Origin: Haloarcula hispanica ATCC 33960
GTDB lineage: Archaea; Halobacteriota; Halobacteria; Halobacteriales; Haloarculaceae
Assembly (NCBI RefSeq): GCF_000223905.1
Contig: NC_015944.1
Coordinates: 1-64,000 of the forward strand
Length of the DNA: 64,000 bases
Direction: 5' to 3'
A model generated the notes under the pieces. The model saw nothing but the letters and a program-made list of their open reading frames with translations, made no database searches and was not told the origin of the DNA. Shown here piece by piece: positions 10,882-52,679 of this stretch. The translations under genes and the position numbers were made by a program. Each line of letters opens with the position of its first letter. Positions within the stretch are counted from its first letter, which is position 1.

Positions 10882-12093
10882 ATGACACGTAGACGCGAAG
10901 TACTTGCAGGTAGTGTCGGATTGGTGGCTTCCCTCGCCGGTTGTTCCAGTGGGAGCTCCGATGATGGAGGAACCACCGGGGATGGGGCCGCGAGTGCCCA
11001 AACAGACCAGGCCGAAGCCACGGCAGATACCGAGCAATCGACTCCGGAAAATTCAACGCCGTACACCGTCGAAATTGAGCCCCACGGCGAGTTCACGTTC
11101 GAAGAAGTTCCCGAGTCGTACTCGGTCATTCCCAGTGTCTACCTCGATATCGGGATGGCGCTCGGCATCCAGCCTACCGCCGCGACCGACATGGCACGGG
11201 CGCCACGGAAGTTCTACGACATCCTCCCCGACGTTACGTTCAACGAGGACGACATCATGGCGCTGGCGGCCGGCTCCGAGTCCGGCTACGACAAGGAGAA
11301 CTTCTACGCTGCCGGCCCCGCTGTCAATCTCATCGACCCTCGGGGATTACGACGTTTCACCGACTGGGCGGACTCCGATATTCAGGAGATCGAGGAGGCC
11401 ACCGGTCCGTTCGTCGCCTCCTCGATCCGCTTCGGCCCCGAACATCCCTTTGGGTACGAGCAGGAAACCTACCACGAACTCTACGACGTTTTCGAGAAGA
11501 TGGCGGCGGTCTTCCAGTGCCAGGCCCGGTACCGGGCCTGGGAGTCGCTGCACGACGAGTTCATGGCGAACATCAGGTCTGATCTCCCCCCTGAAGACGA
11601 ACGCCCCTCCGTCATTGCGGTGTGGCGCGGCGTAGACCCGACTTCCGGCCAGTTCTATCTCTCTGATATCCACAAATACCACAATCAGACCAAGCCCCTC
11701 TCACGGCTCGGGCTCAGGGACGGTTACGATGCTGAGATCCCTGGCGGTGGTACCGTCGGTTACGAGGAACTCCTCAACCACGATCCAGATTACATCGCTG
11801 CCGTGGGCCGGCTCACAACCGCAACTCACGACGAGTTCGTGACCAACGTCGTCGAGCCGTTCGAAAACAACCCGAACGGTCAGGACCTCACCGCCGTTCA
11901 GGAAGGTAACATCATCCGCATCGGCGGCCAATACCAGGGTCCTATCGTCGATCTTTTCGCCACGGAGGCCGCCGCCAAGCAAGTCTGGCCCGATCGCTTC
12001 GGCGAGTGGCCAGGTCCTGTCCGCGACGTCCCTGACGAAGAGAAACTGTTCGATCGCCAGGCGGTCAGTGACATCATCAACGGAAACATCTAA
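10882..12093 (+). CDS. Iron-type ABC importer substrate-binding lipoprotein
   Basis: 403-residue Tat lipoprotein: MTRRREVLAG with the arginine pair, lipobox LAGC at about residues 18-21, an S/G/D/T-rich linker, then a periplasmic-binding-protein fold of the iron-siderophore/cobalamin class. Visible conserved parts include PESYSVIPSVYLDIGMALGI and the late VDLFATEAAAKQVWPDRFGEWP. It is the first gene of a compact importer operon (binding protein, permease, ATPase). The substrate class (ferric siderophore, haem or B12) cannot be settled from sequence; the iron-box-like operator favours iron. A paralogue is at 51435-52679. Confidence 0.88.
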   Translation: MTRRREVLAGSVGLVASLAGCSSGSSDDGGTTGDGAASAQTDQAEATADTEQSTPENSTPYTVEIEPHGEFTFEEVPESYSVIPSVYLDIGMALGIQPTAATDMARAPRKFYDILPDVTFNEDDIMALAAGSESGYDKENFYAAGPAVNLIDPRGLRRFTDWADSDIQEIEEATGPFVASSIRFGPEHPFGYEQETYHELYDVFEKMAAVFQCQARYRAWESLHDEFMANIRSDLPPEDERPSVIAVWRGVDPTSGQFYLSDIHKYHNQTKPLSRLGLRDGYDAEIPGGGTVGYEELLNHDPDYIAAVGRLTTATHDEFVTNVVEPFENNPNGQDLTAVQEGNIIRIGGQYQGPIVDLFATEAAAKQVWPDRFGEWPGPVRDVPDEEKLFDRQAVSDIINGNI

Positions 12094-49348: not shown

Positions 49349-50065
49349 CTAATGAACCTCAAGAAGCTGATGAGACAGTTGCTGGGGTATCGACACCATC
49401 GGCCAATGACCCGTGTCCAGTTCACCGAGTTGCCACTCCCGTTGCTCACACAACTGCCGAATCATATCGAGGGTGGAGCCGTCCATCCCGCTCTGGGTAC
49501 AAAGTATATAGCTGGTGGGTAACGATACGTCGGGGGTACCGACGTTCACTTGCTGTCTGAACGTATCCAGTGGATGCGGGACGGCTTTTTCTCGCATCCA
49601 CTCTGTGTCCTCGTCCGAGATACCCACCCAGCCCGAATGGTCATCTGGGAGAGGCCAGCCGCCAGCATGATCTTCGGCCGCTGCCTCCATCGTTTTCCAC
49701 TCGTCCAGTGGATAGAATTCAGCTGCTGAAACCGGATCGTCGTTCATTGGAATCAGCGCATCCAAGTAGACCATGTGTTTGAGCCGCTCGGGAACTCGCT
49801 CTGCCACTCCCGTCACAACAAGGCCCGCATAGCTATGCCCGAGGAGGACAACATCTGTGAGGTCGTTGTATTCGAGGACATTTACAATGTCCGTAATATG
49901 TGTTTCTAAGTCGACCTCACAGTGTGAAAGGTGTTCTCGCTCACCAAGGCCAGTGAGTGTCGGTGTATATACTTCGTGTCCCTCCTCACGGAGCAGTGGG
50001 TGAAGGTACTTCCAGCACCATCCACCGAGCCATGCTCCGGGGACGAGAACGAACTGTTGTTCCAT
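49349..50065 (-). CDS. Alpha/beta hydrolase
   Basis: 238 residues of the esterase/hydroxynitrile-lyase-like alpha/beta hydrolase group. The oxyanion region FVLVPGAWLGGWCWKYL is at the N-terminus, the nucleophile Ser is in LLGHSYAGLV, and the catalytic His is in LDTGHWPMVS near the C-terminus. A triad Asp is not certain. There is no signal peptide, so it is cytoplasmic. The substrate is unknown; relatives hydrolyse small methyl or acyl esters. Confidence 0.88.
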   Translation of the reverse strand: MEQQFVLVPGAWLGGWCWKYLHPLLREEGHEVYTPTLTGLGEREHLSHCEVDLETHITDIVNVLEYNDLTDVVLLGHSYAGLVVTGVAERVPERLKHMVYLDALIPMNDDPVSAAEFYPLDEWKTMEAAAEDHAGGWPLPDDHSGWVGISDEDTEWMREKAVPHPLDTFRQQVNVGTPDVSLPTSYILCTQSGMDGSTLDMIRQLCEQREWQLGELDTGHWPMVSIPQQLSHQLLEVH

Positions 50066-50212: not shown

Positions 50213-50480
50213 ACGAATGCCAGCCCGACTAGCAGTGGGTTACCTGTCGGGTCCGATCTGTACTTGACCCCACGACACATGGGCAGTGGGTAGTTTCCGT
50301 CGTGTGATCTCCGCTAACACGGCCAGTGCCGTGGTCCTCCGCAACGCTACAGCCAACAACCGGCGGTCGCTTCGGTGATTGTAACGGCTCCTCCCTGGCT
50401 GTGTGGGAGTATCGTCCACCTCTCGATGCCGCGATTGCGGAAGCTCAGTCATCGCAGAGCTAATGAAATGGGATAAAACG
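50213..50480. other. Gene-free stretch before the RNA array
   Basis: GC-rich, no supported gene. Part of it (GGGTTACCTGTCGGGTCCGATC, about 50235-50256) vaguely recalls the unit start of the array but does not fold the same way, so I do not count it as a copy. Confidence 0.35.
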
Positions 50481-50498
50481 TCACAACGATTTTTCATA
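50481..50498 (+). promoter_or_regulatory. Promoter of structured RNA unit 1
   Basis: TCACAACG (50481-50488) is directly followed by ATTTTTCATA, a TATA-like run about 26 bases before GGGTTCTGG at 50520. The same box-then-TATA order precedes unit 2. Confidence 0.45.
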
Positions 50499-50519
50499 CC
50501 AAGTCCGTTCCATTCGATA

Positions 50520-50660
50520 GGGTTCTGGTCCCCGCATCCGCTCCCCCATTGAATCCGATCACGTTCGTCAAACGGTCCGGGTCCAGAACCCGTCGTCGTG
50601 GTTGACGACTCCAAATGGTGCCGTTGCACGCCACTCCCCCCGGCTGCCCACCATTCCTTT
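50520..50660 (+). ncRNA. Tandem structured RNA, unit 1
   Basis: Unrecognised RNA of about 141 bases. Stem P1: GGGTTCTGG (50520-50528) with CCAGAACCC (50583-50591). Stem P2: GTCGTCG (50592-50598) with TGACGAC (50603-50609), the inner G-T pair being a wobble. Stem P3: ATGGTG (50615-50620) with CACCAT (50649-50654), C-rich loop, followed by the pyrimidine run TTCCTTT, like a terminator. Units 2 and 3 share the design. No frame on either strand gives a credible protein. Confidence 0.6.
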
Positions 50661-50752
50661 GCTGCTGGAACGCAGATGTGTCTCGCGCGTGGTTGAATAA
50701 GTTAGTGAAAATGAGTGGATTGCGATAAAAACCAACAGACGGCGTGGGGATT

Positions 50753-50770
50753 TCACAAACGTTTTATATA
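50753..50770 (+). promoter_or_regulatory. Promoter of structured RNA unit 2
   Basis: TCACAAACG (50753-50761) followed by the strong TATA box TTTTATATA (50762-50770), whose centre is about 26 bases before GGGTTCTGGG at 50791. This spacing predicts that the transcript starts at the first G of stem P1. Confidence 0.65.
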
Positions 50771-50790
50771 CACTCGTATCGGTGCTAGGT

Positions 50791-50928
50791 GGGTTCTGGG
50801 CCCTGTCCAATCGCGTTGGATTCGCCCACACGATTGCTTCGGGCTGGAATCCGTCGTCGAAATCGACGACTTCCGATGGTACGTTGCACCCCATTTCTCC
50901 CACCCCCATAGCAACGTACCATTCTTTC
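50791..50928 (+). ncRNA. Tandem structured RNA, unit 2
   Basis: Best preserved copy, about 138 bases. P1: GGGTTCTGG (50791-50799) with CTGGAATCC (50844-50852); relative to unit 1 three bases changed, and every change gives a G-U pair, so the stem is kept only in plus-strand RNA. P2: GTCGTCGA (50853-50860) with TCGACGAC (50863-50870), perfect. P3: ATGGTACGTTGC (50876-50887) with GCAACGTACCAT (50911-50922), perfect 12 bp with a C-rich loop, then TTCTTTC. Strong TATA box upstream. Confidence 0.68.
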
Positions 50929-51009
50929 GTGTGATTGACTGAGTTGTGCGTCCCGTTGACGACTGTATTCCGTGGAATTTTCACTATGTTAGGAGTTACC
51001 ACAAAAATA

Positions 51010-51018
51010 TCACAAACG
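51010..51018 (+). promoter_or_regulatory. Upstream box of structured RNA unit 3
   Basis: TCACAAACG (51010-51018) as before unit 2, but the 17 bases from here to GGGTTCTG at 51036 are 12 fewer than in unit 2 and hold no good TATA box; AAAAATAT at 51003-51010 might serve. This promoter may be decayed. Confidence 0.4.
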
Positions 51019-51035
51019 GCGCATTACACCGACAT

Positions 51036-51173
51036 GGGTTCTGATCCCCGTTTTGGGCCCCTTCCTCCTTTGAGCCACTTCCTCCAACCCATACCTCGGG
51101 TCCAGAACCCACCGTGCCTCTGACTGCAGTGGGTGGCACACAAGGTGCCCATTGCCACCCGCCGTCCGCTTTC
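51036..51173 (+). ncRNA. Tandem structured RNA, unit 3 (diverged)
   Basis: About 138 bases. P1: GGGTTCTG (51036-51043) with CAGAACCC (51103-51110). The P2 position is not recognisable. P3: GGGTGGCA (51131-51138) with TGCCACCC (51153-51160). The stem sequence of P3 differs completely from unit 2 while pairing is retained, which supports a selected structure. The tail is less T-rich (GTCCGCTTTCC). Possibly a diverged or decaying member of the family. Confidence 0.5.
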
Positions 51174-51434: not shown

Positions 51435-52679
51435 TCAGCTCGATTCGGCGAGGATGTCGGCGAGTTCATCGCGGTCAAACAGCTGTTCGTCCTCGGGAAT
51501 GGCCGGGAGCTCGCCAGCGGTGATCTCGCCCGGCCACTCCCCGAACTCGTCGGGATAGAGCTGTTTTCCAAGCATCTCCGTCTGGAAGAGATTGATGATC
51601 GGGCCCTGATAGGCTGACCCGCCGACGTACAGTTCGTCCTCCTGAACGGCGGTGAGTTCCTGCCCCAGCGAGCTATCACGCATCCCCTCGACCGTCTTTC
51701 TCAGCGCATCCTCGCCGTTCCAGTCGCGGTAATTGACGCCGAAGTGGAACACCAGCACGTCGGGATCGATGTCGAGTAGCGCCTCGTAGTCGACCTGAAT
51801 CCCGGACTGGCCACCGTACTCGCCCTCGAACGCGTCGACAACGCCGAGATCTCTGTACTGTTTTTTCCCGTACGCCTTGTCGATCTCGGTTCTGGGGTTG
51901 TAGGCACGGAAGAACCCCTCGTTGTCGGGGTTTATCTGTGCGTTGAGCAATCCGACGCTCGGACGGTCGGACTCCGGTGGAACCCGGGACCGCATTTCCT
52001 GTAGCGCCTGCTCGTAGAGAGTGTTGATAGCAGCGGCTGTCTCGGGCTTTCCGAGCAGTGCCCCGTACCTGCTGACGAATTCGGGGATATCGTAGTAGGG
52101 ATAGGACTCACCACTGGGCCATGTGGGCCAGTCGTCGCCGCGCTTGCGGCGGCTGGCGTTCCCAAAGAACGGCCCAATCGAATCGGTAATTTCGGAGATA
52201 TCGCCCTCGTCAGCACCGTAGTACGAAATGAACCGGTTCGGGTCAGTAGCGAACAGGTCCGGGTCGAGTTCGTAGAGCATCTCCGTTCGGAGCGACCAGT
52301 CGTCTGTCCGGACCAACTCCAGTGACTCGGGGTCGGGCACGTCTACGCCGGGAAGCTGGTCGTAAAACCCGGTAAACCAGAACTGGTTGCCTTCGGCGGC
52401 GATGAGTTTGTCGGCCTCCCCCAGTGCAGTCAGGATGTCCTCCTCGAATCCCCACCCGCCGACGATAGTCTCCGGGTTCGACTCGAGTCTGAGTTCGCCG
52501 ACCGGTGCCATCGTCCCTGAAAAAGACCGGTCGGGTCCTGCCTTGGTTTCCCCTGACTCGGTGGCCTCACTCGAAGCCCCAGAACAACCCGCGAGCGAGC
52601 CAGCGGTCAGCAGCGTGGTCCCGTACTTTACGCACTCCCTCCGTGTCGACCACGTTTCGTCCGGATCTGTCTTCGCCAT
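51435..52679 (-). CDS. Iron-type ABC substrate-binding lipoprotein, paralogue
   Basis: 414-residue Tat lipoprotein (STRRECVKYG, hydrophobic stretch, lipobox LAGC) with the iron-siderophore binding-protein fold: ETIVGGWGFEEDILTALGEADKLIAAEG, PFFGNASRRKRGDDWPTW, PSVGLLNAQINPDNEGFFRAYNP and the end block GPIINLFQTEMLGKQLYPDEFGEWPGE, which parallels the paralogue at 10882. No permease or ATPase gene is adjacent, so it may use the importer at 12098-14169. Two strong iron-box-like operators overlap its promoter. Confidence 0.88.
   Translation of the reverse strand: MAKTDPDETWSTRRECVKYGTTLLTAGSLAGCSGASSEATESGETKAGPDRSFSGTMAPVGELRLESNPETIVGGWGFEEDILTALGEADKLIAAEGNQFWFTGFYDQLPGVDVPDPESLELVRTDDWSLRTEMLYELDPDLFATDPNRFISYYGADEGDISEITDSIGPFFGNASRRKRGDDWPTWPSGESYPYYDIPEFVSRYGALLGKPETAAAINTLYEQALQEMRSRVPPESDRPSVGLLNAQINPDNEGFFRAYNPRTEIDKAYGKKQYRDLGVVDAFEGEYGGQSGIQVDYEALLDIDPDVLVFHFGVNYRDWNGEDALRKTVEGMRDSSLGQELTAVQEDELYVGGSAYQGPIINLFQTEMLGKQLYPDEFGEWPGEITAGELPAIPEDEQLFDRDELADILAESS

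Follow-up and report, generated by a model that had tools for sequence, protein, structure and literature searches.

A tandem array of three structured RNA genes in Haloarcula hispanica belongs to a previously unlisted family and may include an antisense regulator of rosR

Three structured RNA genes lie in tandem on the plus strand of the window, by which is meant the whole stretch of 64,000 nucleotides of Haloarcula hispanica ATCC 33960 DNA that was analysed (contig NC_015944.1, positions 1 to 64,000). Computation shows them to be genes of one real small RNA (sRNA) family, which is new to Rfam and previously unlisted; that they are transcribed is inferred, there being no expression data. The reading judged more likely than not, again without expression data, is that these are trans-acting sRNAs, of which the third would mask the start codon of rosR.

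All three units were found where a first-pass annotation, made from the sequence alone, had placed them on the plus strand (Table 1). The array is intergenic, between genes for an alpha/beta hydrolase (49349-50065, minus strand) and an ABC substrate-binding protein (51435-52679, minus strand), and no annotated feature overlies it. H. hispanica N601 has an identical array (100%) at the same coordinates, and its position relative to neighbouring genes is conserved in several species. The hydrolase gene itself looks inserted in H. hispanica; the orthologous loci compared are without most of the gene beside the array. The IS605-like hairpin remarked by the annotation 0.3 kb upstream is not conserved with the array: alignment with its orthologous loci L012 and L013 begins only near position 50215.

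Table 1. Features of the array, in window positions (CM, covariance model)
Feature	Position	Strand	Description
Unit 1 promoter-like region	50481-50519	+	TCACAACG at 50481-50488, plus TTTTTCATACC; alignment of 31 upstream regions
Unit 1, type 1 RNA	50520-50660	+	CM R1, 140 bits
Unit 1 helices	P1 50520-50528/50583-50591; P2 about 50592-50598/50603-50609; P3 50614-50620/50649-50655		C-rich loops
Unit 2 promoter-like region	50753-50790	+	TCACAAACG at 50753-50761, plus TTTTATATA; upstream alignment
Unit 2, type 2 RNA	50791-50928	+	CM R1, 60 bits
Unit 2 helices	P1 50791-50798/50845-50852; P2 50853-50859/50864-50870; P3 50875-50887/50911-50923		P1 with G-U pairs; P3 with C-rich loop
Unit 3 promoter-like region	51000-51035	+	AT-rich AAAATATCA about 30 bases before start; upstream alignment
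Unit 3, type 3 RNA	51036-51173	+	CM R2, 133 bits
Unit 3 helices	P1 51036-51044/51102-51110; P3 51131-51137/51154-51160		Linker box between P1 and P3
Box GTGCCTCTGAC	51114-51124	+	Antisense to nucleotides 3-13 of the rosR reading frame (ATGTCAGAGGCAC)

Units 1 and 2 each fold better than all 200 of their dinucleotide shuffles (z -3.3 and -5.2); unit 3 folded alone is weak by the same measure (z -1.4), and its helices are backed by its relatives. P1 is formed by GGGTTCTGG/CCAGAACCC and P2, in units 1 and 2, by GTCGTC/GACGAC. Alignments of 30 type-1, 15 type-2 and 17 type-3 relatives support helices P1, P1b, P2 and P3 with compensatory changes: paired cells amount to 93%, 93% and 95%, respectively, against 24-60% in slid controls, and double-change cells number 31, 6 and 10, covariation support being weakest in type 2. 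In type-2 P1 there are 42 G-U cells versus 2 A-C, and in all helices together 127 versus 35. Because G-U variants are far commoner than A-C, it was concluded that selection acts on plus-strand RNA, rather than on DNA cruciforms. The P1 sequence and the unpaired C-rich loops are also conserved in themselves. In type 3, the sequence of P3 differs among relatives while its pairing is retained, and unit 3 represents a separate subfamily, composed of P1, the linker CGTGCCTCTGAC and an unrelated P3, whose 3' half is no variant of that of units 1 and 2.

On these points the first-pass annotation held: the GTCGTC/GACGAC hairpin of units 1 and 2 is P2, the G-U changes in P1 of unit 2 are an instance of a preference general across the family, and P3 of unit 3 pairs despite a wholly different sequence. 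The check it had proposed, whether homologues keep the P1-P3 pairing, came out in its favour, as homologues exist and the pairing is kept. Its account of the promoters held in part. A TATA-like element lies about 25-30 bases ahead of the first G of P1 and is common within each type, and such elements at fixed distances support the claim that the units have their own promoters, transcription again being inferred, without RNA-seq. A TCACAA(A)CG box, claimed to precede all three units, has a common register only in units 1 and 2 (-39/-38) and stands at -26 in unit 3, most of whose orthologues are without it, so that it is common to types 1 and 2 only; near unit 3, TCACAAACG is in a different register and not conserved.

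The family appears confined to Haloarcula. BLAST with the array found seven places in its own genome, among them the array of the window, two others on the 489-kb contig and a type-1 copy standing alone, and gave matches in 14 of 32 Haloarcula genomes. When 146 genomes of the host's taxonomic family were run, the covariance models for types 1 and 3 matched 15 and 16 genomes, all Haloarcula, with 1-19 matches in each positive genome and none in the family's other 21 genera; named records with array matches are likewise Haloarcula only. In keeping with the first-pass annotation, which knew of no Rfam family, Rfam 15 gave no match to the units, whether at the gathering cut-off or with E values relaxed to 1. 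A tRNA/tmRNA search found none, and phage records gave no DNA match to the array; an exact-pattern scan of IMG/VR returned 7 stretches. Beside the Haloarcula matches, scattered single bacterial ones in a GTDB pattern scan look like chance. A protein-coding reading was set aside, there being many overlapping frames on both strands and, among the relatives, indels not divisible by three.

Some copies have settings of their own. The solo type-1 RNA (G000:C1:401163-401298, minus strand) lies between phosphonate-transport (phn) genes and a large helicase gene and has close type-1 relatives in many Haloarcula genomes. In another genome, array units stand in opposite orientation at the two ends of one segment (G023:C14 4481-4923, plus, and 11320-11442, minus) with equal model scores, and the same segment is inverted in a second species (G007:C21); possibly it is a recently exchanged element.

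The functional argument turns on a short box in unit 3. The linker between P1 and P3 is invariant as GUGCCUCUGAC(A), and CGTGCC(T/A)CTGAC occupies this place in 17 of 17 type-3 RNAs. In unit 3 the match to rosR is 11 bases, the twelfth letter being T, and other copies of the box mostly read GTGCCTCTGACA, matching rosR nucleotides 2-13. Enrichment of this 12-mer is shown by its 170 sites in the 32 Haloarcula genomes, against 15 for the reversed control, and by its presence, often in several copies, in 111 of the 146 family genomes (reversed control 0-3). When 110 distinct sites were classified, 23 were rosR starts, and the other 87 were mostly hairpins of many unrelated sequences, mostly intergenic. 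The flanks of these 87 give better folds than their shuffled versions (p 7e-5), and the box within them is 0.56 unpaired as against 0.42 with shuffled flanks (p 2e-12); in one orthologous chromosomal hairpin, present in many species, the stem has changed on both sides and the box has not. In several type-3 RNAs, pairing between the box and the 5' strand of P3 is possible (unpaired 0.12-0.28). The box has sharp limits, spanning exactly 12 bases, and it frequently follows a C unable to pair with rosR. Types 1 and 2 have no box, and for the 20-base conserved type-1 loop no complementary genome site was found besides the RNA genes at up to 3 mismatches.

Box RNAs also occur on the chromosome of the same genome, where three carry the box in a hairpin (G000:C3:22896, minus; 492958, minus; 1475999, plus; loci L259, L260 and L262). 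They have orthologues in other Haloarcula, and L260 and L262 have a second hairpin downstream. The largest numbers of 12-mer copies in the taxonomic family, 14 and 20, were seen in G055 and G056, both of genus g6.

The gene at which the box points is an orthologue of RosR (hsRosR, PDB 6ez1, E 3.5e-44), a PadR-family protein, which in Halobacterium regulates the oxidative stress response (PMC3443676, PMC4287449). Exact complementarity is shown: the 12-mer is the precise reverse complement of rosR nucleotides 2-13 in 30 of 30 genomes checked, and among the recognised protein genes of the array's own genome only rosR contains this complement, exact over 12 bases, in sense. In the rosR promoter, TTAAATA stands at -29 relative to the ATG, and the mRNA should therefore be leaderless, with the box covering its first bases, although this mRNA start is inferred. 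Shared loss is likewise shown, in that 28 of 30 genomes with the exact rosR start have at least one extra box, as against 0 of 15 in which the start has drifted. These counts are clustered by genus and represent about five independent events, and genomes with the exact start were partly found via the 12-mer itself.

Several observations limit what the correspondence can bear. Boxes altered in step with the drifted rosR starts of other genera were sought directly and showed no enrichment, and the evidence is therefore of joint retention and loss, not of compensation. Codons 2-3 of rosR (TCA GAG) are conserved also in genomes without boxes, which implies that they are under some further constraint. 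In single genomes, a few more reading frames starting MSEA matched the 12-mer as well. Since full-length duplex energies of the units with rosR are not distinct from those with control genes, the case for rosR rests on the box and not on overall duplex energy.

In the proposed mechanism, the three genes, non-coding and members of a single Haloarcula sRNA family, would each be transcribed from a promoter of their own into an RNA in which P1, P2 and P3 serve as scaffold and 3' end. The unit 3 linker GUGCCUCUGAC, exposed between P1 and P3, would base-pair with the very first nucleotides of a leaderless rosR message (AUGUCAGAGGCAC) and hide the start codon; initiation would be blocked, and translation of RosR or stability of its mRNA lowered. 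Several further RNAs, encoded by chromosome or plasmid, share the box but not the scaffold and would converge on rosR too, as redundant sRNAs do on their targets in bacteria. Duplex formation in vivo and the direction of the effect are inferred, as is the leaderless state of the mRNA. Two marks of a trans-acting sRNA bear on this: all units are independent and intergenic with structure conserved on one strand, the transcript not having been observed, whereas a conserved seed complementary to a distant mRNA is met by unit 3 only and was not found for units 1 and 2. The conserved C-rich loops of the latter suggest other partners, of which none has been found.

Many arrays stand in a conserved plasmid context, in the order a327-sm71-sm100-[RNA array]-PadR-HTH227, with a327, sm71 and sm100 on one side and a PadR-family regulator on the other, there often followed by a second HTH protein and then sm99 and sm84. 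The module has ParA/MCM to one side and orc1/cdc6 to the other on pHsi139, and on the CBA1115 plasmid it is near ParA. The first-pass suggestion, that the RNAs could be either small regulators or products of a mobile or defence element, is supported in both halves, the regulatory one by the unit 3 box antisense to the rosR start, the mobile-element one by the many arrays within this plasmid replication and maintenance module. Neither the array of the window nor the solo phn copy has the module, which argues that the RNAs do not depend on it in cis, and one genome (G029) has array RNAs and no sm100 homologue. Within the module a winged-helix gene diverges from HTH227-PadR, a layout the same as that of the phiH immunity region and of the SNJ2 regulator and accessory genes (loci compared: L252 7622-9111, L263 and L265). 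The PadR-sm100 intergenic regions at L253 9493-9997, L251 9577-10000, L230 and L231 hold two further structured box RNAs, one on each strand.

These features favour a rival, and unlikely, explanation, in which the RNAs are plasmid-borne control elements regulating the plasmid's own PadR-sm100-sm71-a327 genes in copy number, incompatibility or immunity, copies elsewhere, that of the window included, being remnants or domesticated relatives. It can claim the conserved gene order at many arrays, the nearness of ParA, MCM and orc1/cdc6, the additional box RNAs on both strands of the same intergenic region and the divergent HTH/PadR layout shared with phiH and SNJ2. Against it stand the retention of the pHH400 array and the solo phn copy across many species without the module, the absence of sm100 from G029, and chromosomal hairpins carrying the box in genomes and genera that lack the module.

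It is very unlikely that the RNAs serve, by means of the box and C-rich loops, to sequester an RNA-binding protein or to bring one in, the match to rosR being coincidental. The conserved C-rich unpaired loops and P1 sequence, the lack of a box in types 1 and 2, and a box of exactly 12 bases, often after a C that does not pair with rosR, could all be so understood, but the rosR site has the opposite sense, and a protein reading GUGCCUCUGACA in the RNAs would not meet it in the rosR mRNA; moreover, the probability that a chance site would fall exactly at a gene start is about 0.05%. Least likely of all is the view that these are inverted repeats acting as DNA (operators, or centromere or origin repeats) and not RNA genes. 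Arrays are indeed common on plasmids and minichromosomes, and the arms of P1 are nearly invariant, but the tolerance of G-U far above A-C, the promoter-like elements at fixed distances and the P3 of type 3, where sequence changes and pairing is kept, all speak against it.

Masking of the rosR start by trans-acting sRNAs has partial parallels elsewhere. Qrr-type sRNAs of Vibrio are redundant and trans-acting, and other sRNAs pair over the start codon of a regulator. As with the Qrr-type, several RNAs here have in common an antisense stretch complementary to the point where translation of a single master transcription factor begins; unlike them, the array and box RNAs differ in scaffold and are archaeal, without sequence relation or known dependence on Hfq, the target mRNA is apparently leaderless, and the arrays are carried on plasmids. 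Methanosarcina mazei sRNA162 (PMC3510493) is likewise archaeal and trans-acting, and its proposed target mRNA encodes a transcription factor, but archaeal group, sequence and target all differ. Haloferax sRNA132 (PMC6560208) and the oxidative-stress sRNAs (PMC5892119) are also haloarchaeal sRNAs with regulatory roles, and the passages on them that bear on the question do not name rosR as an sRNA target. The 'cuckoo' sRNAs of alphaproteobacteria are tandem and homologous with exposed C-rich loops, and the array resembles them in these respects; it differs in that its shared box is not C-rich and that no target has been identified for the loops that are, those of types 1 and 2.

Two other known classes were tried and rejected. 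The D-box motif CUGA lies inside the box, but by reading the C-box motif RUGAUGA is absent from unit 3, and Rfam gives no C/D match, so a box C/D sRNA was dismissed. An IS200/IS605 omega RNA or other mobile-element RNA was set aside, no TnpB or transposase gene being common to the arrays; TnpB lies near arrays on pNG500 and pHsi204 only, among annotated ones, and none is at the window array. As to CreTA RNA toxin-antitoxin systems, which have degenerate CRISPR repeats and an RNA toxin next to cas genes, no cas gene was seen beside the window array, and the cas genes of pNG400 lie about 5 kb from its array.

A bolder reading, about as likely as not, is of a haloarchaeal network spanning the taxonomic family, in which many chromosomal and plasmid RNAs of unrelated scaffolds would direct one 12-base box against the leaderless rosR 5' end, and resident plasmids would set the host's stress response. 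The open-access literature searched described neither the array family nor sRNAs against rosR, nor any case in which unrelated scaffolds, some of them on plasmids, bear a common box directed at a single regulator of an archaeon. Clear targets are available for only a few archaeal sRNAs, and most haloarchaeal mRNAs are leaderless, a kind of message on which the mode of sRNA action is unresolved. The box and rosR offer a concrete, testable case, with a short conserved box, a conserved site over the start codon and genomes in which both have naturally been lost, and RosR itself has a solved structure and known phenotypes. The rosR reading, if true, would link plasmid backbones to the control of a host stress regulator.
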